From IMG/VR virus record IMGVR_UViG_3300031746_000003, positions 56,345-120,344 of that record: DNA of 64,000 bases. One strand, written 5' to 3'. Positions 4,474-45,534 of the stretch are shown here, in pieces. Each line of letters begins with the position of its first letter. Within the stretch, counting starts at the first letter, position 1. This DNA is from a virus. Position numbers and translations under genes: made by a program. The notes under the pieces were generated by a model that had not been told where the DNA came from, did no database searches, and saw only the letters and a list, made by a program, of their open reading frames with translations.

Positions 4474-7400
4474 ATGGCTGCTGAACTCCCCCGCCCAGGG
4501 GTCGAAGTAATCCAGGTTTTCCGGACCACCTCCCCAACGGTGATCACCCCCACGCTCACGCCTTGCGTGGTCGGCGTAGCCAAGCAGATTGTTGATGTTC
4601 TGGTGCCAACGGGCTCTGGTAGCAACACGCTGAACACGGCGGCGTTGATTAACATGCCTGGCTTCTTCATCTCGAAGGATGCCGTTGGTGACCCGCCTAT
4701 CTACAGCATTCTTGACGGCGATGCGTTTAGCATTTCCGTAAATGGTGGTGCAGATATCACACTAGAGTTCTCTGACCTAGCGGCAGCTGGTCTTTCCCCA
4801 GCAGATATCGTTGCTCAGGTAAACGAGCAGCTGCTGGCGCAGAACGTCTCTAGCATTCGCGCTACCCAGGTTGGAGATCTAACTTGGCGCCTAGCCACAG
4901 TTGGTCTTGGGGAGTTCCAGTACATCACCATACTAGACGCTGACGCTTCGGTGCTCAGCGCCTTTGGTATCGGCATAGGCAAGACCTACGCCGGTCTGGA
5001 CAACTACAACCAGCTCATTGCTGAGATTCCTCAGGCAAACTTTCCAGACCCACGTAGCAATCTTTCGCAGTTGGCTATCGAGAACGATTCTATCCGAGTC
5101 TTTCTAGCGACCGGTAACGGAGCCAACCTACTAGAGACCAGCCGCACGTCAGCGTTCTGCCGTAATGGAGCTACCAGCAAGGTAGTTGTTACAGGTATTA
5201 CGGACATTGCACTATTAGCCTTGTACGGCGGTGCGGGTACATTGGACACCACCGTACTCAACATGTCCATAAATGGTGCGACGTCACCAACAGCACTGAC
5301 CTTTGTAGGCCTTACAAACGCCTTAAATGAAGCAGCTATGTTGGCGGCTATCACGGCTACTTTCCCTGGTGTAGTAGCCAGCTTTGTAGCCGTGGGCCCA
5401 GTGCACAACCTTGTACTCACCACGACCATCAGTGGAGCACCTGCTCAGATTCGCATCTTTGCTGGTACTGCCAACGCGATTCTGGGTCTCTCAGTGTCTG
5501 ACACAGTGGGTGGAACTATCTCTGCTGTCGATGACGGCAATGGAGACACAGTTACTCCATTGATAGAGTTCGGTGGGTACACCCCACAGGCCTTTACGGT
5601 TACGCCTACCCAAGCGGTACTAACTGCGTCTTCTGCACTCACACTACCACCAGCAGCGGGCTCGACACTTATACTGAATGGTGGAGACCAGACACAGACG
5701 ATCACCTTTGATGGTACTGAGGTACTAGCTGCTGCGGTACATGCGGCTATCAATGCCGTAGTTGGACCTGCCGCTGGTGGTCACATCACTGCAAGTGGGG
5801 CTACTCTAGTTCTTACCCACGACCGTTTTGGGACGGACAGTGTGATCAACATTGTCGGTGGTACAGCGCTAGCGACTAGCCTAGACCCCGGTGTAACACC
5901 GACTATTGTAGCTGGGGCTACGAAGCGCGGAATTGTGTCTAAGCCGGAGGCGGGTGACTCGCTCTACTTAGATGGTTCGTTCTACGCGACCATTCTTCAG
6001 GTAGCACCTGGCCTTGTTACCAGCCGCGTGAAGATCGACCGACAGGTGCCAATTAAGGCTGACCTAGCGCAGACCTTCTACATCGTTGCCAACAACCTGC
6101 CTGGTATAGCAAGCAGGCCGCTACCGGAGCTAACCATCACCCTAAATGGGGACGTGGTTATCAAGCAGGAGCTCCTCAGGGAGATCACGGGCACCTCTGT
6201 AGGTACTCTACGAGCTCCTATCTACCTGGCGTACAAGGCCGTTCGTAAGGACGTTACCTCGGCAGCTACCTCCCCTGGTCTCCTACGGTACGACAACACG
6301 ACCACGCTTACTCAGGACCTCAGCCCGATTAACGTGTCCAACCCACTTGCCCTTGGGTTGTTCTTCGCTCTTCTCAATGCCCCAGGTGCTCAGGTTACTG
6401 GCATCGGTGTTGACGAGGTTAGCGCAGACTCCCCGTACGGCACAGTCGAAGGGTTCACGCGAGCGGCTGAGTACCTTGAGAACTTCGAGGTCTACGCAAT
6501 CGCTCCGCTGACCCACGACGATACGGTTGGCCAGGTGTACAACACCCACATCACGGTGATGAGCTCCCCCGCTAACAAGGGTGAGCGCATTGCTATCTGG
6601 AACCCGGCTACGCCAACCAAGAAGCTAGACACACTAGTTGCGTCTGGCTCTGATGGTAATAGCTCAGGTCCCAGCGGTACTCTGTTCGATACTGGTGTAG
6701 CTAACCTGTCTGCCCTTCTGCTGAACGCAGGGGTAAACCCGGTTGGTACGATACCGGTATCGAAGGGTGTGTTCCTGGACATCGCCAGTGACAGCAAGCA
6801 CTACTCGGTGCAGTCTATCTCGGGCGCTACCGTCACCATCAGGACAGTGTTTGGTCCTGGTGAGAACACGGATGCTTTCTACTCCACTACTGACCTGAAC
6901 ACTCCCCCTCTGCCAGCCTCGCTTATAGAGGAAGCGTTTAGTGTTAAGGTCCGTGGAGCAGCACTCGCTACGGTATCAGGTATGCCTGACCGTAACGGTA
7001 TTGCGGCCACCGTAACCGGCATTGGCCAGTCCTTCCTGAACCGCAGGTTCTGGATGACCTTCCCTGACAAAGCGGGTGCTGTCATAGAGGGCACTGACCA
7101 GATCGTGGAGGGCTTCTACATGAACGCGGCTATCGCGGGCATGATTGGCCAGCAGCCTCCTCAGCAGTCCTTCACGAACTTCCCGATGACTGGGTTCACC
7201 CGAGTCATTGGATCGAGTGAAGTCTACTCGGAGCGTCAGCTGAACCAGATGGCTGCAGGTGGCGCGTACATCATCGTGCAGGACTTCATCGGAGCTCCGC
7301 TCATCGCCCGGATGGCTCTCACCACGGACCTCACGTCTGTGGAGACCCGTACGGACTCCATCACGAAGGTTGTCGACTTCACCGCGAAGTTCCTGCGCAA

Positions 7401-7629
7401 GTCGCTCAAGAACTTCATTGGTAGGTTCAACATCACCCAGGGTCTACTGGACAGCCTTGGTACTGTTATCCAGGGTTCTCTAGGGTTCCTCATCGAGCAC
7501 GGCATCCTCATCGGTGGGCAGCTGAACAACATTGTTCAGGACGAGACTGCTCCTGACACGGTGCTTATCGATATCACCCTGGATGTTCCATATCCCTGCA
7601 ACTACATCCGTCTGACCCTATTCATCTGA
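4474..7629 (+). CDS. Contractile tail sheath protein
   Basis: 1051 residues. The N-terminus (PRPGVEVIQ, then TPTLTPCVVGVA) is the typical opening of phage tail sheaths, and the last ~150 residues (TTDLTSVETRTDSITKVVDF, then the IGRFNIT helix and final beta strands) are the conserved C-terminal sheath domain that forms the inter-subunit mesh. The middle (about 110-650) is a large insertion of beta-rich repeats forming the exposed outer domains, making it long for the family. It is immediately followed by the tube gene. C-ending codons become frequent toward the 3' end, as expected for high expression. Start supported by AAAGGAG. Confidence 0.95.
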   Translation: MAAELPRPGVEVIQVFRTTSPTVITPTLTPCVVGVAKQIVDVLVPTGSGSNTLNTAALINMPGFFISKDAVGDPPIYSILDGDAFSISVNGGADITLEFSDLAAAGLSPADIVAQVNEQLLAQNVSSIRATQVGDLTWRLATVGLGEFQYITILDADASVLSAFGIGIGKTYAGLDNYNQLIAEIPQANFPDPRSNLSQLAIENDSIRVFLATGNGANLLETSRTSAFCRNGATSKVVVTGITDIALLALYGGAGTLDTTVLNMSINGATSPTALTFVGLTNALNEAAMLAAITATFPGVVASFVAVGPVHNLVLTTTISGAPAQIRIFAGTANAILGLSVSDTVGGTISAVDDGNGDTVTPLIEFGGYTPQAFTVTPTQAVLTASSALTLPPAAGSTLILNGGDQTQTITFDGTEVLAAAVHAAINAVVGPAAGGHITASGATLVLTHDRFGTDSVINIVGGTALATSLDPGVTPTIVAGATKRGIVSKPEAGDSLYLDGSFYATILQVAPGLVTSRVKIDRQVPIKADLAQTFYIVANNLPGIASRPLPELTITLNGDVVIKQELLREITGTSVGTLRAPIYLAYKAVRKDVTSAATSPGLLRYDNTTTLTQDLSPINVSNPLALGLFFALLNAPGAQVTGIGVDEVSADSPYGTVEGFTRAAEYLENFEVYAIAPLTHDDTVGQVYNTHITVMSSPANKGERIAIWNPATPTKKLDTLVASGSDGNSSGPSGTLFDTGVANLSALLLNAGVNPVGTIPVSKGVFLDIASDSKHYSVQSISGATVTIRTVFGPGENTDAFYSTTDLNTPPLPASLIEEAFSVKVRGAALATVSGMPDRNGIAATVTGIGQSFLNRRFWMTFPDKAGAVIEGTDQIVEGFYMNAAIAGMIGQQPPQQSFTNFPMTGFTRVIGSSEVYSERQLNQMAAGGAYIIVQDFIGAPLIARMALTTDLTSVETRTDSITKVVDFTAKFLRKSLKNFIGRFNITQGLLDSLGTVIQGSLGFLIEHGILIGGQLNNIVQDETAPDTVLIDITLDVPYPCNYIRLTLFI

Positions 7630-7869: not shown

Positions 7870-8682
7870 ATGGCCGGCACATTTTCCGAGTGGTCACCAT
7901 ACACAAACTACGTTCAGGCCGGTATGGTCGACGGGGCGTACGCCAACGCTGGCTACACCATGTTGGCAGCTGGTCCTCCGCGACTAGCTAACATCGGTGG
8001 AGCAGCAGCACTAGCTTCTCAGGTTAGTGGAGCTGTCATCAGCTCTAACGGTGGCGCCCAGCCTCCTGTATCAGCTGGCGCTAACCAGATCGTGTTCCCG
8101 ATTGGTATCGTGCAGAACTTCAACCTGTCTCACACCAGGCAGTTCTCCAGGATCTTCGAAATTGGGTCAGAGCGAAGCTACTTCATTGCTGGTAGGACGG
8201 TAGGCCAGATCGGTCTAGCTCGCATCTACTACCACGGTGCTTCGCTGCTACGCACGATGTACGCGTACTACAGCGACATCATCCCGCCCACAGTAGTGCA
8301 GCCAATGTTCGGCAACATCGGTTCGCAGACGATGTCCAACCCGCACGATGTGATCATCCCTCCTGGGTATGAGAACATCTACATCAACCTGGCTTCCGAC
8401 TTGTTCGCGCAGCCTGTAGGCCTACTGATGTACATCCGTGACATCAACCAGGACGCTCTTGGTGCGATGTACTTCGAAGCGTGCTACATGCCGAACCACA
8501 GTTGGGCAACAGACTCTCAGGGTGTGCTCATCCAGGAGTCGGTAGCGGTGCAGTTCGAGCGTGGAGTACCAGTTGAGATCGCGGCACTGAGCCTAGTTGG
8601 TGGCCAGAACGCTGGTGGTGCCGATGTCTTCTCTCCGCCTGGGCAGGGTTCAGGTACCATCCTAGGTATCCCTGGTTCGTGA
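7870..8682 (+). CDS. Tail tube protein
   Basis: 270 residues with AAAAGGAG upstream. It lies directly behind the sheath gene, where contractile phages encode the inner tube. The central region (FPIGIVQNFNLSHTRQ, GSERSYFIAGRT) has the beta-hairpin style of tube monomers, followed by a beta-rich C-terminal half. Codons are strongly biased to C-ending forms, as for a very abundant protein. Assignment rests on order, size and fold style; no alignment was possible. Confidence 0.8.
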   Translation: MAGTFSEWSPYTNYVQAGMVDGAYANAGYTMLAAGPPRLANIGGAAALASQVSGAVISSNGGAQPPVSAGANQIVFPIGIVQNFNLSHTRQFSRIFEIGSERSYFIAGRTVGQIGLARIYYHGASLLRTMYAYYSDIIPPTVVQPMFGNIGSQTMSNPHDVIIPPGYENIYINLASDLFAQPVGLLMYIRDINQDALGAMYFEACYMPNHSWATDSQGVLIQESVAVQFERGVPVEIAALSLVGGQNAGGADVFSPPGQGSGTILGIPGS

Positions 8683-17347: not shown

Positions 17348-18574
17348 ATGGCTAAGAGAGACCAGCAGGGGCCTACGCCCCCCGTGTTTATCGACCCAAA
17401 GCTAGGAGCTGAGGCAGCCTATAGAGCTGGTATCCAGGCTCGTAGGGCGGCAGCGGGGCCAGCCAAGTACACAACTCCTGTAGCTGGAGGACCGACCCCC
17501 GCTATTCCTAGGTTAGACCAGCAGCCTTACGCGGGCGTTACCATGGCTCAGCAGGCTGAGATGTCTCGGCAGGGGGAGCTACAGAAGGCTGCCTCCGATA
17601 GGGTCTTTGACCAAGCTCGTAGCCAGCAACGACAGGGGATAGTGGAACGCCCGCAGGGTGCCCCTGTTAGCCCCCAGAGCAACATGGGGATCTTACCCGG
17701 TGACACACTCCCGGAGCAGGCGCGTTCAGATCCAGCCTTCATCGAGGGGCATGGCTCTATGTTCGCTGCAGCTCAACCGAACCTGGCGTCTAAGTACGGT
17801 GTGGTACGCAGGGGGCAGTTGATACCGCCACAAGCTCTGCGACAAGGGCAGGCATCGCAACTTCGTCCTGAGACGCTTAAGGACTTGGAGACACTACGAG
17901 AGCTACAGCAGCATTCCAAGGTAGGAGCATTGCTGGATAACGATGCTGAGGCGGAGAAAGCGGTAGATGACTCAGCTGCTTCTGCTGCAGGTCGTGCAGG
18001 TAATGTGGTCGGGGACAATAGTACTAGCCCCGTAACGGATGAAGACAAAGAGCGAGTGTCTAAGACACTAGCTAGTATGGATGAGTTCGACTTCGATACA
18101 TTTAGGCAAATGATGATGAAGGACATCATCAACAATCCTAAACAGAAGGGCGTTATTGAGGCGAAGCTTACTCCGCTCAGTATAGACGACCTTATCATGC
18201 ACAACAGGGCAGTACAGAAGGTGCCTATTGTGCCTGGGTTTACCCCGGAGTTTCAGTCTCTAACTGCAGAGGAAGATCTGGCTCTTAAGCGTTTAGTTAT
18301 GCAGGAGTCTAAGACAGTAGAGGTTACTGACAGGTATCTCTTAGACAAGCTTGCCATCATGTCTATCGCCGTTGGGCTGAAGAACATCAATGGAAAGCCG
18401 CTAGGGGACCACTTAGACACCGAGGGTAACTTTGATGATACAAAGTTCTGGGTGAAGTTTAACCGCATCATGAAGCTGCCACTTCAGATGATCGCGTCTA
18501 TCGGCGTTAACATCTTTTGGTTTGAACAGCGCGTACGTAAGCTCTTCGTAGCTGAGAAAGTGGGAAATGGCTGA
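17348..18574 (+). CDS. Tail assembly chaperone, short (in-frame) product
   Basis: 408 residues from ATG 17348, preceded by AGGAGA. The N-terminal ~200 are Gln/Ala/Pro-rich and flexible. The C-terminal ~190 are a folded helical domain (FDFDTFRQMMMKDI, then DRYLLDKLAIMSIAVGLKNI and a NGKPLG turn) in the style of phage tail assembly chaperones and T4 gp26-like proteins. The frame ends four codons after a canonical slippery heptamer G GGA AAT (18562-18568), with a long open -1 frame beyond, the lambda G/GT arrangement. It should bind the tape measure protein and be absent from mature tails. Confidence 0.8.
   Translation: MAKRDQQGPTPPVFIDPKLGAEAAYRAGIQARRAAAGPAKYTTPVAGGPTPAIPRLDQQPYAGVTMAQQAEMSRQGELQKAASDRVFDQARSQQRQGIVERPQGAPVSPQSNMGILPGDTLPEQARSDPAFIEGHGSMFAAAQPNLASKYGVVRRGQLIPPQALRQGQASQLRPETLKDLETLRELQQHSKVGALLDNDAEAEKAVDDSAASAAGRAGNVVGDNSTSPVTDEDKERVSKTLASMDEFDFDTFRQMMMKDIINNPKQKGVIEAKLTPLSIDDLIMHNRAVQKVPIVPGFTPEFQSLTAEEDLALKRLVMQESKTVEVTDRYLLDKLAIMSIAVGLKNINGKPLGDHLDTEGNFDDTKFWVKFNRIMKLPLQMIASIGVNIFWFEQRVRKLFVAEKVGNG
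18562..18568 (+). promoter_or_regulatory. -1 ribosomal frameshift slippery site (GGGAAAT)
   Basis: The heptamer reads G GGA AAT in the chaperone frame; after a one-base slip the tRNAs re-pair with GGG AAA. Lambda uses GGGAAAG at its G/T junction. The zero frame stops at 18572-18574; the -1 frame is open from 18556 to 18993. GC-rich sequence just downstream (18576-18597) could form a stimulatory stem. Confidence 0.8.
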
Positions 18575-18993
18575 GGACTCCCGAGGGCTGGGCGAGAGCA
18601 AACTTACTGCTTAAAACCCTAAAAGCGCCACCCCCTAAGGGGTCCCTCCAGGAGTCCGTACTCATCTTGCTGCTGATGCGTTTAGAGACGATAGAGCACG
18701 CAAGATTTAGGGCGTTAGCTCAGATATACGTTGATAAAGAAAAGGGTATCGAAGCTTTCGAAGAGTACGTCAAGATCGCCTTCCCATACATGACGGCTGT
18801 AAAGGACAGAAGTAAAGAAGCAGCCCACAACGCGCTAAAGAGCTGGGTAGGTAGCGGACAGATAATGGTTAGAGCCATGCCAGAGTCTAAGGGTAAGAGC
18901 AAGATGCGCGCCAAGCTCACAAAAACTACTACACAAACACGCGAACAAGCTGAGTCTCTCTATAAGAAAATGGGCAACGTAGTACCTACATGA
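18568..18993 (+). CDS. Tail assembly chaperone, C-terminal extension made by -1 frameshift
   Basis: The -1 frame adds about 141 residues to the 407 of the upstream frame, giving a predicted product near 548 residues. The extension starts with a basic linker, then a helical domain (ETIEHARFRALAQIYVDKEKG) and a Lys/Thr-rich tail. It could instead start independently at TTG 18667 or ATG 18676, with AGGAG about ten bases before the TTG. The open frame reaching back exactly to the slippery site favours frameshifting. It ends in an ATGA overlap with the next gene. Confidence 0.72.
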   Translation, partial: WLRTPEGWARANLLLKTLKAPPPKGSLQESVLILLLMRLETIEHARFRALAQIYVDKEKGIEAFEEYVKIAFPYMTAVKDRSKEAAHNALKSWVGSGQIMVRAMPESKGKSKMRAKLTKTTTQTREQAESLYKKMGNVVPT

Positions 18994-19388
18994 CTCCTCT
19001 AAACAAACCAGACTATGCCTACTTCTGTGGTCATTGCGGCAGTGCCTCACTAGACATCAGTGAACTAGTAGGTACTGCCACATGCAAGGCATGTAACTGG
19101 AGTGGCAGCACTAGCGATTTGGCTGCCATGCCTATCGAGCACGAGTTCGGTAGCTCAGAGAAGGTGGTACAGGCCTTGATGGGGGACATGCGCTTGATGC
19201 TAGCTAAACACTTAGCTGCACCCTTGTTACAGTTCCTTATGAAGTGGGGATTTCTGAGCAACCACATCACAGAGTATACGAAGCACGCAGTAGGTAGATA
19301 CCTAGCAGCTACAGCTAACGCTATGCTTACTGCTGTTATTGAAGAGAGGCAGAAAATGGAGAAGGAAAAGCACAATGGAACAGGGTGA
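18990..19388 (+). CDS. Zinc-ribbon protein with helical tail
   Basis: 132 residues. CGHC at 13-16 and CKAC at about 32-35, flanked by aromatic residues, make a classic N-terminal zinc ribbon; the remainder is helical (MRLMLAKHLAAPLLQFLMKW). ATGA overlap with the chaperone extension. Unknown role; possibly a transcription or assembly factor. Confidence 0.65.
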   Translation: MTPLNKPDYAYFCGHCGSASLDISELVGTATCKACNWSGSTSDLAAMPIEHEFGSSEKVVQALMGDMRLMLAKHLAAPLLQFLMKWGFLSNHITEYTKHAVGRYLAATANAMLTAVIEERQKMEKEKHNGTG

Positions 19389-19689: not shown

Positions 19690-20261
19690 TGCAAGTCAAC
19701 ATACTTCGAGTAGACCAGAGCTATTCCCTTGTGGATAAGTCGGTCACTAACAACCTGGTAATAGCGTTACCTAGTGGTGACGAGCTACGTATCTCGGTGC
19801 CTGAGGACGTTGTTCGCTACCTACTGGGTACTGCAGCAGCAGAAGCGGAGGTACAAGAGGAACTCGCCCAGACAATAACGGACGATGAACCTGTCGTGTT
19901 CAATGGGGTGCCCTCTAATGTTGGCTACGTTCGGTGGCAAGAGCTATCTGATACTGATATGCCACCTGCCATAAAGAAGATCTTCACAGATGCCGGGATG
20001 CCAGATGAGATATCCCCGGCTGTCTTTGAGAACTTGTACTCCATGGCGTTGGAGAGGCTGATGACTGTAACAGCACCAATGCAGCCAGCTGTGCCAGGTA
20101 TACGCAGAGTGGGCTCACCCGTGATCATGCAGCGGCAGAGTCGTAGGTCTGTACCAGCTGATGACTATGGTAACCCAATAGTTCAGTCCGCAGGTGTTGA
20201 CGCAGGTACGGTAGTGAGTGGTGGTCCTGACTCTGATGAGGATGGTGTTGGACAGCTATGA
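19689..20261 (+). CDS. Unknown acidic protein
   Basis: 190 residues from the ATG in the TGATG junction (GTG 19686 also possible). The N-terminal ~60 residues are beta-rich (NNLVIALPSGDELRISVPED), followed by an acidic helical middle and a disordered Ser/Gly/Asp tail (GGPDSDEDGVG). No motif recognised. Confidence 0.65.
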   Translation: MQVNILRVDQSYSLVDKSVTNNLVIALPSGDELRISVPEDVVRYLLGTAAAEAEVQEELAQTITDDEPVVFNGVPSNVGYVRWQELSDTDMPPAIKKIFTDAGMPDEISPAVFENLYSMALERLMTVTAPMQPAVPGIRRVGSPVIMQRQSRRSVPADDYGNPIVQSAGVDAGTVVSGGPDSDEDGVGQL

Positions 20262-20719
20262 TTCTTATCGCCTGCCTAACCTGTAAGACTGGTATCCACA
20301 TCTCCCCAGACTCTGACGGAGCTGAGGGTAACCTCGTGGGTGAAGGCTGTGAGTGGTGGCCTGACAAGTACCCATGTCCTGTGTGCGATCGTAAAGCTAT
20401 GTACGTACCAGCTGCTGATCAGCAGGCTAGGAATGAGCTAACAATGCATGAGCTCACCCCTGTAGAAGCCTATGCAGCCTTCAATGGTATGGGCTTACCA
20501 GAAGACCAAGAGTGTGGAGCTCTAGCTGTGGCTCAGCAGTTTGCTAAGAAGGTAAAGCAGGTGCACTGTCGTAACATTCCTAACACACAGCGCTCAGTAA
20601 TTAGTTGGATAGAGTTTGATGATGGGTACAAACTCTATTTAGCTGCCGGGGTTCAAGGGGCAGTTGTCTACAGAATACGTGGTCCGTATTCGGTAATGGA
20701 GAGAATCAGTGAAAGCTGA
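20258..20719 (+). CDS. Zinc-ribbon protein
   Basis: 153 residues. CLTC at 6-9 and CPVC at about 40-43 form an N-terminal zinc ribbon; the C-terminal half is an alpha/beta region (RSVISWIEFDDGYKLYLAAG). ATGA overlap upstream and an 11-base overlap downstream. Function unknown. Confidence 0.65.
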   Translation: MILIACLTCKTGIHISPDSDGAEGNLVGEGCEWWPDKYPCPVCDRKAMYVPAADQQARNELTMHELTPVEAYAAFNGMGLPEDQECGALAVAQQFAKKVKQVHCRNIPNTQRSVISWIEFDDGYKLYLAAGVQGAVVYRIRGPYSVMERISES

Positions 20720-23894: not shown

Positions 23895-24202
23895 TGGACC
23901 AGCTAACAGAGCATCTACTAGAGAACGGTGAGCTTAGGTCTGTAGTCGTAGATCTATCTCAGGAACTGCATGACCGGCTTGACTCTATGTCTGCCAAGAC
24001 AGGTCAACCTAAGGGCATCCTAATGAAGCGAGCTGTCATACTGATGCTTGAGCAGATGTGGGGTAGGTCAGAGGAGTTAGTGCGAGAGCCCGCCCTTGAA
24101 CTGCCAGTATGTGCTAACCCACTTACTGAGATAGCTATTCAGCGGGCAGTAAAGGTAATGCCTACTAGGGACTTTCCACTACCTGAATCTGAAGAAAAGT
24201 AA
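23894..24202 (+). CDS. Probable ribbon-helix-helix protein
   Basis: 102 residues from GTG. RSVVVDLSQELHDRLDSMS followed by a helix with GQPKGILMKRAVILML matches the beta-helix-helix plan of CopG/Arc proteins, with a ~50-residue C-terminal extension. It would be the second RHH regulator in this gene run. Fold assignment by pattern only. Confidence 0.55.
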   Translation: MDQLTEHLLENGELRSVVVDLSQELHDRLDSMSAKTGQPKGILMKRAVILMLEQMWGRSEELVREPALELPVCANPLTEIAIQRAVKVMPTRDFPLPESEEK

Positions 24203-24873
24203 TGCCTGTACTTACCCAAGAGATTAAGTATGGAGAAGATAACTCCATAGATGCTGTTCCTACCCTAACGGATGAAGAAAAGAACATCCTAGAGGAAAAG
24301 AAGAAAACTCTAGACAAGCTTTTCTCTGACGGTGGGAGAAAAGCGAAGTACAAGCTAGAGGTACTCTTTGGGAAGAAGTACTCCCTCAATACACCTTCCC
24401 ATGGTGCCGTCACCTTCTGGGAGAGTGGACGTAAGTTCCACGGCGGTGGTGACACCAAGCTCTACATCTGCCCTGGAAAGAAACTCAACAGGAGTGAGTG
24501 TGACGCCTTCATACCAGAGTCAGCGCAAGGCTATGGCCACCTGGTCTGCCCTAAGTGCGGTCAGGTGTGGAAGGGCGACGAGGTAATAGGCGAGCTCATG
24601 TTTAGGCTCACCTCCCAAGGCTGGTGTACTGTACTCCTAAAGTACTTCCTCAAGATGGAACTTGATGCGGACATCAAGATAAAGTATCCACCTGAAGATA
24701 TACGCAGTATGGCTATAGCCGAGCAGGAAAAGCAGCGTGGGGGAGAGCTCCTAGATACTGCGCGGGGTAAGCGGATGCATGGGGCTAAGATCTACCCCAT
24801 GATGAACATCATAAAGGACACCTCTAGTGGATCTTCACTAGAGAGTCGTATAATGGCCTTCATAAGGTCATGA
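24202..24873 (+). CDS. Zinc-binding protein of unknown role
   Basis: 223 residues. A charged N-terminal helix (about 22-45), then a zinc site from CPG... C near 90-101 with CPKCG near 115, flanked by beta strands, and a basic helical C-terminus. Could be a nucleic-acid-binding or assembly protein. Starts in TAATG and ends in ATGA with its neighbours. Confidence 0.6.
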   Translation: MPVLTQEIKYGEDNSIDAVPTLTDEEKNILEEKKKTLDKLFSDGGRKAKYKLEVLFGKKYSLNTPSHGAVTFWESGRKFHGGGDTKLYICPGKKLNRSECDAFIPESAQGYGHLVCPKCGQVWKGDEVIGELMFRLTSQGWCTVLLKYFLKMELDADIKIKYPPEDIRSMAIAEQEKQRGGELLDTARGKRMHGAKIYPMMNIIKDTSSGSSLESRIMAFIRS

Positions 24874-28637: not shown

Positions 28638-31600
28638 ATGCCTCTATCTTCTATGGACATCGCCCAGATGAATGGCGCCTTCCAGAACGGGGCCATGCAA
28701 AACATGGCTCAGTCTGGAATGATCGGGCAACCCTACGGGCACATGCCCTTAGGGGAAAACCTGGCTGGTAGAGCCATTAACATGGGTACTGGTGTAGCTC
28801 AGCCACTGACCATGGGAATGGCCACCCTCGCTGGGACTGACCCCATCTCTATGGGTATGCGCATGGGTACGTTTGCCTCCAGAGGATTAGGGACTGCTGG
28901 GGGTGTCGGCGTTGGTATGGCCGGTGGTCTTGGGATGATGGCTATCGGTGCCGGAGTACAGTACGCCGGGCATCAAGCGGTAGTCGGTGCTCAACAGCAG
29001 CAACAGTTCAACTCCTCTATGCGGAGTAACTTCAACTTTATTAACCCCGCTGCACACGGGGGTCGTGGCTTCTCGTCAGTAGACACAGCCACGATCTCTA
29101 GCAATCTTCGATCTATGGCTGGTGCTCCTCAGGGGCCCATGGGGGAGATGGTGGGCTTTGAAGAGCTCGGACGACTTGCTTCCAACATGGGACGTATGGG
29201 GATGGCACAGGGAGTACGCAGTGCCAAAGAGTTTTCTGGCAAGTTTAAAGAGATGGTCGGCGCGCTAAAAGAAATAGCTACGTCGTTCAACACCAACTTA
29301 GAAGAAGCTCAGCAGATGATGGGAGCCATGCGTGGCTCTGGTGTGTTTGGTGCTGGTAAGGCCGCTGCCTTCGCTAAGAGCATGAAGATGAGTAGCGCTG
29401 CGTCTGGGCTCACCACTACGGAGCAGACATCAGCAATGAATATTGGTTCTCAGATATCTAGGTCCATAGGTGGGCTAGGTAGAGCTGGTGCAGCTGGTGG
29501 GCTTAAGACCATTACAGACATCGGCACGGCTAAGCAGATGGGCATCATGAGTGAGGAGGATATTTATAACTCCACAGGGCTTGCTGGTGCTGAAGGTGTG
29601 CAGGCTATGGCTACGCAGCAGATGCAGTCAGCTGCTAGCTTTTTGAAGGGTGGGTTAGGCCGTAGGTTTCTAGCGTCCATGGCCGGTAAAGACGGTACGT
29701 TAAATCAGGGGTCTGTAAGTGCCTGGACAGCTGGTGGCATTGGTACTGGTGAGACCATGCGGATGGCTCATGAGAACTTGGGTGGGGTTGGCCGTGCTAA
29801 TTTTATACGTAATGAAGGGCGTCTTCGTGGTGAAGCTCTAGCCCAGTTCGGTGGGGCACTACCCGCGATGGTCATGAAGAGCTGGCTTGACCAGAGAGGC
29901 ATGTCGCTAGGGGAGAACAACGATAGATCTATGATTTTCATGCAGCGCCGCCTTGGTATGGGGCGTGACGAAGCTGACATGATGATCCGGCAGATAGAGC
30001 ATCTTCCAGAAATCATACAGCAGCAGAAGTTAGCTCAAGCAGACGTGGGTCAGAGTGAGCGCATGGGTAGGCAGAAAGCCAACCGTGGTCTAGAGGGCCT
30101 TAAGCGCAGCTTTGATAGAGCCAGAGAGACTGTTAACAACAAGCTACAAAAAGCTGGTGCAGATCTCTACGAGCATGCGTCCGACCAAATAGAAGCGTGG
30201 GCTAACAAGATGGTTGGTGGCTACGTCGAGGTGTATAGCCAAGCTGCAGCTAAGGCAGTCTCTTCTCTCAATATGGCTGGAGATGAGGGAGACCGGGCTA
30301 GAGCCATGGTTGGTATGAATGGAGGCAAGTTTAAACAGATGGGCTCACTGGGTAGTAGTGATACCCTGCGTAAAAGTATGTTCGGGGATGTTACTACTGG
30401 GGCGGGGAGTAATAACAGTAACTGGATACAGAAGAACCTTGGTATAGGAGATGTCTTGGCAGAGGAGCGTGGGGGTGCTGGCTGGTCTAAGTTCGGTACT
30501 CAAGGCGAGATGATGCGCGAGATGGGCGGCTCTCTACTCGGTACTGGTGGGGCTGATGCTCAGGCTAACAAGTCCATGCTTTCTATGGGTGCTGGAGGTG
30601 CTGCTGGTGCTATTGCCGGTGGTTGGACGGGGGCTACCGCCGGTGCAGTAGTAGGCGGGTTTGTAGGTGGTGCTGTAGGTCTTATGGCCGGTGGTGTTGG
30701 AGTTCTCGGTGGCATAGCCGCTGGGCAGGCTGTAGGTGGTTGGATAGGTGGTATAGGAGGAGCTGCAGCTGGTGGGTATCAAGGAGCTCAAGCTGGTGGA
30801 CTGCTCAGCTCAGGTGGAGCTGCTAGTTCTCAGGCGTTGGGTGCTGCAATGTCTAGTGAGGAGTCTGTACGCCTTCGCCAAGGTGCTTTCTCGTCAGATG
30901 AGGAAACAAGAAGCAAGACCATCTTGATGATGGACGGCGATGTCAAAAAGATAGAAGACAAGAAGAAGAAAGGGTTAACACTAACTGACACAGAAGAAGC
31001 ACAGCTAACTAACCTGAAGAGCATCAAGACTGCCTCCTCTGCAGGTGCTTACGCTGATAAGGCGGGCAAGAGCGTTACCAGCCTGTCTAAAGATGAGTGG
31101 GAGAAGATTGGTAAAGCTAATGGCCAGAGTGGCACAGAAGCTAGAGCAGCTGCGTACGCTCAAGCAGGTACGGCAGCTAAGGATCAACTTGAAGCGGTTA
31201 TAACCACCGCAGATGTTATGCAGAAGCAGGGGGAAGATATTGTTAGTGGATTAGGCACTAAAGGTGAGGGTGAGGGTGGGCAGCTAGTGCGTGGGGCTGG
31301 CGGTAAGTTAGAGTTGGGTGAAGAGGCTTATGGAGAGATCCATAACCAGTTTAAGAAGAACGAGCAGGCGTTAGGCGACTCAGCTTTCGAATACGCTCAA
31401 GGTATGGCTAAGGCAGCTGCATTTGCAGCTGACTACAAACCTGGCGAGTTCAAGTTTGAAGGTGTGTCTCAAGGGCGAGCAGGGTCACAAGCGTATGCGA
31501 AGGCTAAAGCAGCTTTTGGACCTGCGGAGGATGCTCGCCGTACTGCCCACATAAAGAAGTGGAAGGAGATGCAGGGTGAAGCTAGCGCCAAGCTCGGAGG

Positions 31601-32177
31601 ACTTAGCGCTGCAGACCGCAGACGAGCTATGCTTGCTGCGGGCAGTGGTGGGCGTGGCGCATTGGTGGACGCCCGTGATGAGTATCAAGCAGCTGTGGAG
31701 GATTCGCTAGATAAGGCTAAGAAGAGCCCAATCATAGGTGAGGGTCTTCGAGTTGCCGCGGGGTTCTTAGGAGTTAGAGTATCCGCTAAAGATCTGGCAG
31801 CTGCTGACAAGAATGGTGGTGTTGACTCTCAAATTAGGTTACTCGCTGAAGCATCAGGTATTGACTTCAAGGACCCTAAAAACTCGCAGTACATGAAAGA
31901 CTTTGAGGCTTTGGCGAAGGCCAAAACACCAGCTGAACGTACAGATGTAGTTACGCGACTGCAAGGCAGCGATGTGCAAAAAGCGATAACTAAGGTACAG
32001 GGTGATAAGAAGGAAGCTAGTGACCGCAAGGACAATCCAATACAGGCTCTGATGGAAGGTCACTTGAAGAACATAGCTTCGGCGTTTGGTGGTGCAGGAC
32101 AAGAACTTGCTAGTAAGATAGGGGTTGCCGTCTCTAGTAAAGATAACACTCCGCCAAGTGCCGAGAAACCAAAATGA
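28638..32177 (+). CDS. Tape-measure-like virion protein with glycine-zipper region
   Basis: 1179 residues. A Met/Gly/Ala-rich N-terminus, long helical stretches with little fold diversity (about 190-560), then an extended Gly/Ala/Val zipper (about 650-730, GGAAGAIAGGWTGATAGAV), then charged helices to the end. Length, helicity, a hydrophobic Gly-rich membrane-insertion segment, and position after the chaperone and before hub/baseplate genes all fit a tail tape measure. Other large ejected proteins cannot be excluded. Confidence 0.65.
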   Translation: MPLSSMDIAQMNGAFQNGAMQNMAQSGMIGQPYGHMPLGENLAGRAINMGTGVAQPLTMGMATLAGTDPISMGMRMGTFASRGLGTAGGVGVGMAGGLGMMAIGAGVQYAGHQAVVGAQQQQQFNSSMRSNFNFINPAAHGGRGFSSVDTATISSNLRSMAGAPQGPMGEMVGFEELGRLASNMGRMGMAQGVRSAKEFSGKFKEMVGALKEIATSFNTNLEEAQQMMGAMRGSGVFGAGKAAAFAKSMKMSSAASGLTTTEQTSAMNIGSQISRSIGGLGRAGAAGGLKTITDIGTAKQMGIMSEEDIYNSTGLAGAEGVQAMATQQMQSAASFLKGGLGRRFLASMAGKDGTLNQGSVSAWTAGGIGTGETMRMAHENLGGVGRANFIRNEGRLRGEALAQFGGALPAMVMKSWLDQRGMSLGENNDRSMIFMQRRLGMGRDEADMMIRQIEHLPEIIQQQKLAQADVGQSERMGRQKANRGLEGLKRSFDRARETVNNKLQKAGADLYEHASDQIEAWANKMVGGYVEVYSQAAAKAVSSLNMAGDEGDRARAMVGMNGGKFKQMGSLGSSDTLRKSMFGDVTTGAGSNNSNWIQKNLGIGDVLAEERGGAGWSKFGTQGEMMREMGGSLLGTGGADAQANKSMLSMGAGGAAGAIAGGWTGATAGAVVGGFVGGAVGLMAGGVGVLGGIAAGQAVGGWIGGIGGAAAGGYQGAQAGGLLSSGGAASSQALGAAMSSEESVRLRQGAFSSDEETRSKTILMMDGDVKKIEDKKKKGLTLTDTEEAQLTNLKSIKTASSAGAYADKAGKSVTSLSKDEWEKIGKANGQSGTEARAAAYAQAGTAAKDQLEAVITTADVMQKQGEDIVSGLGTKGEGEGGQLVRGAGGKLELGEEAYGEIHNQFKKNEQALGDSAFEYAQGMAKAAAFAADYKPGEFKFEGVSQGRAGSQAYAKAKAAFGPAEDARRTAHIKKWKEMQGEASAKLGGLSAADRRRAMLAAGSGGRGALVDARDEYQAAVEDSLDKAKKSPIIGEGLRVAAGFLGVRVSAKDLAAADKNGGVDSQIRLLAEASGIDFKDPKNSQYMKDFEALAKAKTPAERTDVVTRLQGSDVQKAITKVQGDKKEASDRKDNPIQALMEGHLKNIASAFGGAGQELASKIGVAVSSKDNTPPSAEKPK

Positions 32178-32443
32178 AGTCATTACTGTTCCAAGGTGTT
32201 ACTCCCTTTGTAGAGCCACCTGACTGTGCTGGTATTCCTTGTCGTGTAGAGGTACCTATCACAATCAATAAGCAGGGTAGACTCTATACGTTTATGCTGC
32301 GTGATAAGATCGCTCCCGAAGACCCTTACCTGGTGATGGTAAAAGCAGCAGCCTTCTCCATCCAACATAACGAGCCCTACAACGGGACGCCAATACCGCG
32401 TTCCGTCAAAGACTTTCTAATCAAGACCAACTTGGTGACCTAA
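32174..32443 (+). CDS. Unknown small protein upstream of baseplate genes
   Basis: 89 residues in an ATGA overlap with the tape-measure-like gene and TAATG with the next. Beta-rich centre (VPITINKQGRLYTFMLRDK). The place is that of small tail-tip or baseplate adaptors; no family recognised. Confidence 0.6.
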   Translation: MKSLLFQGVTPFVEPPDCAGIPCRVEVPITINKQGRLYTFMLRDKIAPEDPYLVMVKAAAFSIQHNEPYNGTPIPRSVKDFLIKTNLVT

Positions 32444-34578
32444 TGCCTGTATTCATCGAGCTCATTACTGAGGCATTCGAAGAAACCAATGCGCGCATTC
32501 AGAAAGATGCGGGCAGTGGTAGCGGCTCTGCTCGTGCCGGTAAGTCTAACGTGCGTAGGCCTGTGCGTGGGTTAGAGATCAAGGAAGATACCTTTGCGTT
32601 CTTGAAGGTAGTACGTGCAGACAACACAGAAATACCAATCATAGACTCTAGCTCACCTACTGGTAAGTCAGAGGGTGGTTACTCTAACTTCATACTGCAG
32701 AGCGTGCAGGAAGCACGTATGGAGAAGAACCAGATAGTAGAGACCTTCGGGGACTCCTACATATTCTTCTTTGGTGAGTCCCCACGCTTCTTAGACGTCA
32801 GTGCGGTGTTACTCAATAGCAACGACTTTAACTGGGAAGCAGAGTGGTGGGAGAACTATAACAAGTACCTACGTGGTACTAAGCTCGTAGAGATGGGGGC
32901 ACGTTGCTACCTTTTCTACGATGACAATATCGTAGAGGGGTACATCCTTGGGGCTCAAGCTGCGAAGACAGCTGATACGCCGCTGTCAGTACAGCTCACC
33001 TTCAAGTTCTTTGTAACTAACCAATCCAATGTGTCTTTCATAGGAGACACGAACTTCCCAACTAGGAAGGTTCTGACGACTATAGACATTGACGAAGCTG
33101 CTCCTATTGACTCCGTTAATACTGATTCGCAGCAGATCGCTAGTAATGCTGTAAGCACTCGCTCTGCAGCAGATCAGGCAGCTGTAGACGCACTGCTATC
33201 TCTTAACGAGCAGTTGTTGGGCGCCATTGGTCCTCCTACAGATCTAAAGCCGGATGAGATAGAGGCTGCTAACGCGGCGATAGCTAAGAACCTAGCTGCT
33301 ATACAGAACTTCCCACCAGGGCAGTTTGGTTCTGATCGTGCGCTTAGTGATGCTGTGCGTAACGCTCCTCCTGGTGGTTTGACTGATCCGGCTGTTACCA
33401 GCGCTATTCAGTCAACCAAGAACTCTGGTCCTGGGCATAGAGGTAAGATCTATGACAATTTCGACGAGTACATAGACAGCTCAGACGGCGCAGGTACCTC
33501 AACTGGCCTGAGTTACAGGCTACAGGATGACCGCCCTCCGTTGTTCTTGTTACAGGGGATCGTAGACTCGATAACTAATGCTGACGATGACCTACAGACA
33601 GAAGCCGCTAACCAGATGGCTAACTATGTAGAACCTGCGCCACCTACTCCTGAGCCACCACCAGAGGAAGAATCTTTTGGTAAGAAGCTACAACACTTTT
33701 TAGCTAGAGATACGCCGACTAACTCAAGAGACGTGCTGGGTTCTCCTAAGGTTATGAACGGCCTTGGTGTTGGCCCCATCTTCACTGCCGGGGCAGGTGC
33801 CGGAGCTGTAGCTGGGTTTGGGCCTAGGTTCGGCGGTGCAGCCCAAGGATTCGGTGGAGGTATAGGTGGCTCAGCTGGCGCTTTTGCTGTAGCTAGCTCA
33901 AGTGGTAGGGCTTTTGCTGGAGCTTTTGCTGGAGCAGCCGCAGGAGTTGGTGTCGTGACTACCGCTGATGGTACCTCCTTAGTCAGCACCAAGAGCTCCT
34001 TTGCAGGTATCTTTGGTCCTACCGCTGCAGCAAAGAATGTGTTTAGCTCAGACAGATTCCGCTACGTAGAAGGTGTTAACGACCCACGCTATGGGTACAG
34101 GAGCCCCCATGCTGCAGGGCCAGGCTTTGGGGTAGTAGGGTTTGCTGACTATGGAGGACCTGGTTTCGGTGGCTGCTCTAGCACTGGTGACCCAGGCTTC
34201 AGAGACCCAAGACTCTTTGCCTTTGCTGGGGTAGGGGCTAGCGCAAGAGCTGGTATCGCGTACACCAGCTTCAACAGGCCTAACCAAGATATCACTGCAC
34301 TAGGCGGCTCAGCGGGTGTCTTTGCTGTGGCAGGTGTATCTACTGGGTCAGGAGCTTTTGCCAGTAGCGGGACTTACACAAGAACAGGACTAGGTGGAGG
34401 AACGTCTGGCCAAATGGGCGGCGCTTACACAACTGTCACAGGCAGACCGTCCGCCTTCGCCATGGTCTCTGTTCCAGGGAAGTTAGACCCAACTGGTCAA
34501 GCCTCCTCTGGCTCTTTCTCTGGCGTTGATGGTTCTGGGGCTTACGCTGGAGCTTGGGCTCAGGCAAGCTTCCCATAA
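32443..34578 (+). CDS. Baseplate/tail-tip protein with silk-like Ala/Gly/Phe C-terminus
   Basis: 711 residues. Residues ~45-210 form a folded alpha/beta domain rich in Trp/Tyr/Phe (SYIFFFGESPRFLDVSAVLL; WEAEWWENYNKYL), reminiscent of tail-tip/baseplate adaptor domains. A helical linker and Pro/Glu segment (about 380-410) follow, then about 280 residues of Gly/Ala/Phe repeats (AFAVA, GAFAGAFAGAAAG) resembling fibrous or amyloid-like proteins. It lies between the tape measure and a hub-like gene. Confidence 0.65.
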   Translation: MPVFIELITEAFEETNARIQKDAGSGSGSARAGKSNVRRPVRGLEIKEDTFAFLKVVRADNTEIPIIDSSSPTGKSEGGYSNFILQSVQEARMEKNQIVETFGDSYIFFFGESPRFLDVSAVLLNSNDFNWEAEWWENYNKYLRGTKLVEMGARCYLFYDDNIVEGYILGAQAAKTADTPLSVQLTFKFFVTNQSNVSFIGDTNFPTRKVLTTIDIDEAAPIDSVNTDSQQIASNAVSTRSAADQAAVDALLSLNEQLLGAIGPPTDLKPDEIEAANAAIAKNLAAIQNFPPGQFGSDRALSDAVRNAPPGGLTDPAVTSAIQSTKNSGPGHRGKIYDNFDEYIDSSDGAGTSTGLSYRLQDDRPPLFLLQGIVDSITNADDDLQTEAANQMANYVEPAPPTPEPPPEEESFGKKLQHFLARDTPTNSRDVLGSPKVMNGLGVGPIFTAGAGAGAVAGFGPRFGGAAQGFGGGIGGSAGAFAVASSSGRAFAGAFAGAAAGVGVVTTADGTSLVSTKSSFAGIFGPTAAAKNVFSSDRFRYVEGVNDPRYGYRSPHAAGPGFGVVGFADYGGPGFGGCSSTGDPGFRDPRLFAFAGVGASARAGIAYTSFNRPNQDITALGGSAGVFAVAGVSTGSGAFASSGTYTRTGLGGGTSGQMGGAYTTVTGRPSAFAMVSVPGKLDPTGQASSGSFSGVDGSGAYAGAWAQASFP

Positions 34579-44332: not shown

Positions 44333-44369
44333 AAACGGCGCTTGGTGACCCCAGGCGCCGTTTCCTTTT
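44333..44369 (+). terminator. Strong intrinsic terminator
   Basis: A 13-bp stem (AAACGGCGCTTGG with CCAGGCGCCGTTT) closes the loop TGACC and is followed by CCTTTT. It ends the unit containing the sigma-like gene; the ribosome site of the next gene starts right behind it. Confidence 0.9.
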
Positions 44370-44382
44370 GGAGGGAACAACA

Positions 44383-45534
44383 ATGGATTTATTTGAATTG
44401 GCAGCTCAGCCAAGTGCTGAAGCTGTACGTGCAGTTGAAACGCTACACAAGAAACTAGTGGTAGGCGAGGTTATGGGCGGTGAGCTCATAGCTAAAGTCA
44501 GCTCTATGGTGATACGGGACAAGCTTGTACCACCTAAGGCTATGGAGTTTCTGCCATTCAACGGTACGGGTACTGACGGTATTCGTATCATGTATGGCGG
44601 CCTGGCTCACAGTATCCACAACCATGCATTGAACCAGCTTGCTAGCACAGCAGGCATACCGAAGATGTTCGTTACCAGGCTGGTATCGGGTGAGCCTTGG
44701 GAGCGTGAGCTGCTGGTAAAGAACTTTGAGGAGATCTATCACAAAGCCGCATTCAAGGGCCGACGTGACGCAGCTCCTATGTTCTTGCACCGTATCGTGG
44801 GTAGTGAGCTGCGTGGGTTTCTTAGCCGTAGCTATAACAGGTACCTAGCTAGTGCCCCGCTACTCAGAGCTTACGTAGAGGCCTGCACAGCAGTGGGGGC
44901 AATACCCATTGACGCAGTAGCTAGTGACATCCGCATCAGTTTGAAGTGCTACCTACCACATGTGTTCGAGCCAGTGCCTAACGAGTTCGTAGGTATTGGT
45001 GTGAACTGGACCAACTCAGACTTCGGGTCGGGCAGGCTGAAGGTAAGTCTCAGCGTCATGCGTATCTCCTCAGGTACCATGGCTGTGTGGGAGGACAAGA
45101 TCAGTAGGGTGCATCTAGGGTCCGTCATTCAAGAGTCCGATATCGAGATATCGGATGAGACTGCTATCAAGGAAGTAGAAGCTCAGTCCTCTGCTATCCA
45201 TGATGCTGTACGTGGGCAGCTATCCCCTGAGGCTGTTGCACAAGTATTAAAGGTCATCAGTATCGCTCATGAGGAAGAGATACCCTGGCACAAGCTAAAG
45301 GCCATGTTTGGCCAGCTACTCACTAAGAAGGAGTTGGAGTTGGTAGAGACCATGCTTAAGGCTGGTAACTCTGACATCATCGATCTTCCACCAGTGGGCG
45401 TGAAGGGTGATACACCCGTAGCTACTAGGTGGTGGGCAGCCAACGTACTTGGGTATGTGGCCTCTAGCGAGAAGAGTGCAGATCGTAAGTTGGATTTACA
45501 GGCGCTGGCTGGTGAGGTAATGGACGCAGCGTGA
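44383..45534 (+). CDS. DUF932-like phage/plasmid protein
   Basis: 383 residues from ATG 44383, which has GGAGGG in front. The core (RGFLSRSYNRYLASAPLLRA, then a beta-rich domain with VWEDKISRVHLG) resembles the DUF932 family common in phages and plasmids, of uncertain biochemical role. The C-terminal ~120 residues are helical (QLSPEAVAQVLKVISIAHEE). It follows the strong terminator and so starts a new transcription unit. Family call by pattern only. Confidence 0.55.
   Translation: MDLFELAAQPSAEAVRAVETLHKKLVVGEVMGGELIAKVSSMVIRDKLVPPKAMEFLPFNGTGTDGIRIMYGGLAHSIHNHALNQLASTAGIPKMFVTRLVSGEPWERELLVKNFEEIYHKAAFKGRRDAAPMFLHRIVGSELRGFLSRSYNRYLASAPLLRAYVEACTAVGAIPIDAVASDIRISLKCYLPHVFEPVPNEFVGIGVNWTNSDFGSGRLKVSLSVMRISSGTMAVWEDKISRVHLGSVIQESDIEISDETAIKEVEAQSSAIHDAVRGQLSPEAVAQVLKVISIAHEEEIPWHKLKAMFGQLLTKKELELVETMLKAGNSDIIDLPPVGVKGDTPVATRWWAANVLGYVASSEKSADRKLDLQALAGEVMDAA

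Follow-up and report, generated by a model that had tools for sequence, protein, structure and literature searches.

A probable -1 frameshift site with a conserved downstream RNA stem in a tail assembly chaperone gene of uncultivated myophages

Our analysis of a 64,000-nucleotide stretch (hereafter, the window) of a virus record of 120,344 bases, IMGVR_UViG_3300031746_000003, points to a tail assembly chaperone pair of the lambda G/GT type, made by -1 frameshifting with an RNA stem, a reading to which we assign a probability of roughly 0.9. Present in the data are the sequence signals and their conservation, conservation of the -1 frame of the kind expected only of a fusion product, a chaperone-like predicted fold, and a conserved RNA stem. 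An initial annotation had already proposed a frameshifted chaperone gene and its interpretation was largely right; the downstream RNA stem, which it had missed, was added in the present analysis.

Slip site and -1 frame extension

The 0-frame gene on the + strand runs for 408 codons from an ATG at 17348 (17348-18574), with the slip site just ahead of its stop. The heptamer GGGAAAT (G GGA AAT) was found at 18562-18568, near the end of the chaperone-like frame as the initial annotation had it, and the 0-frame codons around it are GTG GGA AAT GGC TGA, the TGA stop occupying 18572-18574. It had been placed four codons before the stop, but the actual gap between the last heptamer codon and the stop is a single sense codon, GGC, which together with the TGA forms a 6-nt spacer (18569-18574). 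A frame check bore out that nothing interrupts the -1 frame between 18556 and a stop at 18993. The downstream region of 108 codons, which the initial annotation said would otherwise be a separate gene with a poor start, corresponds to a 108-aa ORF beginning at TTG 18667, the earliest ATG, GTG or TTG in that frame. The bare heptamer is no rarer in the window than chance (two matches counting both strands, versus 3.78 expected), while the heptamer followed by GGNTRA occurs once in the window and in 0 of 100 shuffles. The signal for a Shine-Dalgarno-like stimulator upstream of the slip site was weak (mean z -0.5, negative in 30 of 44 sequences), and we do not claim one. Separately, an ATG in the +1 frame overlaps the heptamer (AAATGG) and opens a frame of 15 codons in the window; it was short and dissimilar in the relatives looked at, and we judged it incidental.

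Conservation provided the decisive evidence that confirmed the slip site. Used as a single-sequence query, the chaperone picked up no relative among viral contigs; relatives were instead reached through the tail sheath (4474-7629), which led to six related contigs, from there to relatives of the chaperone, and through profile searches to many more. Besides the window, the comparison set of 44 non-redundant sequences took in 42 further virus contigs and one metagenome-assembled genome, with near-duplicates removed and identity limited to at most 93% over 130 nt. Both parts of the protein were compared with named phages, at the nucleotide level and by tblastn, and gave no match; a chaperone profile found nothing in Vibrio phage D69 or Salmonella phage Arash. 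One relative, L139 (JAKPDW010000050.1), comes from a contig that binning assigned to a Deltaproteobacteria genome, a possible hint of the host if the binning is not wrong.

A canonical heptamer sits at the same position in 41 of the 44 sequences, as GGGAAAT in 22 and AAAAAAT in 19, and one codon followed by TAG, TGA or TAA comes after it in all 44. The check proposed in the initial annotation, conservation of the heptamer in relatives, thus gave a positive result that extends to the stop and the -1-frame protein. In L074 the sequence reads GGGAAAA, shifted one codon upstream. The canonical heptamer is missing in two sequences, both of which keep the frame arrangement: L061 (the same as L033; 3300047172_000213) has AGT TTT (CAGTTTT) at the slip position, and L132 (3300025536_000012) has CGG AAT TTC (GAATTTC). 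Judging from these letters, both would allow re-pairing on a Phe codon once the ribosome had slipped by -1, and the two sequences offer a natural test of what slipping needs.

The -1 frame extension (18559-18993) adds about 140 aa past the slip, joined as GN-WLRTPEGWARA..., with no start codon upstream. Conservation of its protein sequence begins right at the slip site (KWL.TPEGWA) and holds among sequences whose chaperones are down to about 25% identical. A predicted model of the extension has helices throughout (mean pLDDT 75.2), and comparison of this fold with viral and solved structures gave no convincing match. It is very improbable that the 108-aa ORF is a separate gene that starts alone, at TTG 18667 or at ATG 18676, with translational coupling as one conceivable means. 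A start codon does exist, and many relatives have one in frame 32-53 nt past the stop. However, about 32 codons of the -1 frame are conserved before any start in the window, and the position of the first start varies among relatives while that of the heptamer is essentially fixed. Since conservation of the -1 protein reaches back beyond any start codon, a fusion product is required. The view that fusion, and not independent initiation at 18667 or 18676 as the only source, accounts for the -1 protein therefore stands, with heptamer, stop and -1 protein all kept in relatives.

That the -1 protein is conserved starting at the slip site also excludes an assembly artefact, and recurrence of the same arrangement in 44 independent sequences argues against an assembly error. 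Slippage by RNA polymerase could be imagined at the six-A run of the AAAAAAT variants, but half of the sequences carry GGGAAAT, which has no long run, and a stem placed downstream of the site (see below) fits ribosomal pausing. We regard a frame change arising from polymerase slippage or assembly error as extremely improbable.

Identity of the 0-frame product and its place in the tail block

The 408-aa product, conserved in all 44 sequences, consists of a low-complexity, Q/P/A-rich N-terminal region of about 230 aa and a chaperone-like C-terminal domain of about 175 aa. Pfam and PHROG searches with either part of the protein returned no significant match (the best were DUF7181 at 0.0044 and phrog_4168 at 0.0068, both seen with 4 of the 17 members), and a profile search of PDB sequences yielded nothing useful. 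An AlphaFold model of the last 185 aa had a mean pLDDT of 82.8. Among the solved chains that were re-aligned to it, 2OB9 gave Z 7.4 over 98 residues and 3KLU gave Z 7.2 over 90 residues, with the next at 4.3; Z values of 7, being under 8, can mirror a common arrangement and are of moderate strength. The top named matches among viral models were the tail assembly chaperone of Rhodococcus phage Finch and gp182 and gp181 of Bacillus phage G. The name chaperone, in the initial annotation a guess from sequence, is thus supported by similarity in fold to HK97 gp13, YqbN, the Finch chaperone, and gp181/gp182.

Upstream of the gene lies a tail sheath (4474-7629, +; 1051 aa) that matches PHROG 279, tail sheath, at E 2.5e-5 and phage G gp178 by tblastn. 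The protein is long for a sheath, and its sheath-family match is confined to the C-terminal part. The order then continues with a probable tube (7870-8682), small genes, the chaperone, the extension, some 15-20 small genes, a probable tape measure and tail- or hub-like proteins, and it is kept in relatives where covered. The probable tape measure (28638-32177, +; 1179 aa) was assigned by its length, a Gly/Ala-rich hydrophobic stretch and its place in the tail block, with no family match in Pfam or PHROG. The chaperone gene does lie ahead of this candidate, but the wording of the initial annotation, "ahead of the tape measure", applies in a loose sense: the two are not adjacent, many small genes intervene over about 10 kb, and the tape measure is assigned by length and composition only.

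It is quite unlikely, though a little less so than the previous alternatives, that frameshifting is real but concerns a structural or scaffolding protein of a different kind, which likewise has an extended form. The lack of sequence family matches, the long low-complexity N-terminus and the distance to the probable tape measure would all suit such a protein. Chaperone fold matches in two libraries, the position of the gene between the sheath and tube and the tape-measure candidates, and a similar arrangement in phage G favor a tail assembly chaperone instead.

Several other genes in the window were recorded. A number of small CxxC zinc-ribbon-like proteins, conserved in relatives, are encoded in the stretch that separates the chaperone from the probable tape measure (18990-19388, 20258-20719 and 24202-24873). 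A tail-like protein at 32443-34578 has a long Gly/Ala/Phe-rich repeat stretch (GAFAGAFAGA...). Further along, the product of 43562-44305 matches PHROG 351, RNA polymerase sigma factor (E 5.9e-8), that of 44368-45534 clearly matches PHROG 1362 (E 3.1e-13; function unknown) and is among the few database-linked genes here, and a tRNA-Phe (GAA) gene is found at 63893-63987, near the end of the record.

An RNA stem downstream of the slip site

A conserved stem starts about 6 nt past the heptamer and closes about 70 nt later. In the window, its 5' arm (18575-18586, +; core GGACTCC) pairs with its 3' arm (18646-18657, +; core GGAGTCC), and it corresponds to columns 14-25 paired with 85-96 of an alignment anchored at the heptamer. 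Across 17 sequences, 89.2% of cells were paired versus 79.3% with shuffled partners (0 of 500 shuffles as high), with 22 two-sided changes versus 7.5 in shuffles. Among 38 ungapped sequences, the 12-bp helix and its one-step neighbours were the best of 9045 placements, with a paired fraction of about 0.80 against a mean of 0.38 (sd 0.07; z about 5.9), in a control that preserves both relatedness and coding. By a stricter count, branches with simultaneous two-sided change numbered 6 versus a mean of 2.1, a modest to weak signal, with 27 of 754 placements as high.

Folding was more stable than in protein-preserving shuffles of synonymous codons in 44 of 44 sequences (mean z -2.2), compared with z of -0.9 to +0.1 for segments of the 0 frame and for others farther into the -1 frame. 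The best stems begin 5-9 nt past the heptamer, and 34 of 44 beat synonymous shuffles at 0.05. A similar stem appears in the minimum-energy fold of the window and most relatives. The copy in the window has seven perfect outer pairs, and its inner part is paired one register off; with these mismatches, this stem taken alone falls short of significance in some tests (dinucleotide shuffle, z -1.59; outer arm, p 0.12). Two smaller hairpins may be enclosed. One (18596-18612, +) pairs 18596-18600 with 18608-18612 in 88.2% of cells, with mostly one-sided changes and weaker support. The other, CCCC...GGGG (18630-18643, +), pairs 18630-18633 with 18640-18643 in 91.2% of cells without two-sided changes, and is weakly supported because it sits on conserved PP..GS codons. 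An Rfam search returned DicF only, below its gathering score.

For most 3' stimulators the distance from the slip site is 6-9 nt (reviewed in PMC5009743), which fits the position at which these stems start, and the downstream stem is probably a frameshift stimulator. It is unlikely that frameshifting is real while the stem is incidental to protein coding and without stimulatory effect, even though both arms encode conserved residues (TPEG and [QR]E[SW]) and some tailed-phage frameshifts seem to lack stimulatory signals (PMC5009743). Counter to this explanation, the synonymous-shuffle z was negative in every sequence and specific to the slip-site region. In L057, L067 and L069 the conserved Glu has given way to Gly, Val or Ala, and the Leu codon opposite it in the stem has a wobble base that matches the change. 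Pairing is also kept in L081, L082, L083 and L122, where the 3' arm lies 12-15 nt earlier, in PPPRGS codons, and 11-14 bp are retained. We therefore favor a stimulatory stem, and consider it fairly likely that, in a large group of uncultivated myophages, a conserved, covarying stem of about 12 bp enclosing about 60 nt stimulates chaperone frameshifting and constrains the -1 extension protein, its 3' partner having moved to other codons in some lineages with pairing kept.

Our search of the open literature found no description of a stimulator at the frameshift site of a chaperone gene; subscription papers lay mostly outside this search, and such a description may exist among them.

Proposed mechanism and comparison with known systems

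We infer from these features that frameshifting occurs, as well as its efficiency, its stimulation by the stem, and the assembly roles of both products. The majority of ribosomes would read through G GGA AAT GGC TGA to the stop and produce the 408-aa chaperone. A minority would slip by -1 on G GGA AAT (GGA to GGG, AAT to AAA) while the RNA stem starting 6 nt downstream pauses them. Continuing in the -1 frame, they would yield a longer chaperone, extended at its C-terminus by about 140 aa of helical sequence. If lambda is a guide, many short copies may coat the tape-measure protein and a few long copies may recruit tail-tube subunits.

Placing a chaperone and its frameshift in a divergent, almost unannotated phage group anchors the tail-gene block. 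The 44 divergent sites, with two non-canonical heptamers and one group with a relocated stem arm, also form a natural data set that suits asking how a slip site and its stimulator co-evolve while both encode protein.

Frameshifting in tail-chaperone genes is established (reviewed in PMC5009743). As in lambda G/GT, a short and an extended chaperone would come from one gene by a -1 slip on a GGGAAA-type heptamer near the stop. Unlike in lambda, the last base of the heptamer (Z) is T rather than G, neither part of the protein matches a known sequence family, and the tape-measure candidate is not adjacent. The conserved covarying 3' stem at the chaperone site is a further difference from the lambda archetype.

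Bacillus phage G offers a parallel in several respects. Its chaperone has an annotated joined, frameshifted product, gp182, with a similar modelled fold, gp181 ends with the heptamer AAAAAAC directly before TAG, and its sheath gp178 is homologous. In contrast, the phage G 0-frame product is 115 aa and lacks the long N-terminal region, its annotated tape measure lies immediately downstream of gp182, and gp181/gp182 share only 13-14% identity with the protein of the window in structural alignment. The tail assembly chaperone HK97 gp13 (2OB9) and YqbN (3KLU) share the fold of the C-terminal domain (90-98 residues, Z 7.2-7.4), but at 7-9% identity and with no counterpart of the N-terminal ~230 aa. 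Likewise, the Finch chaperone (A0A2P1JXC0) has a matching predicted fold (Foldseek E 8.8e-4, probability 1.00) at 14% identity, in an unrelated phage. Both chaperone frameshifting and downstream stem stimulators are known as such, and what these alignments appear to add is a conserved stem at a chaperone site.
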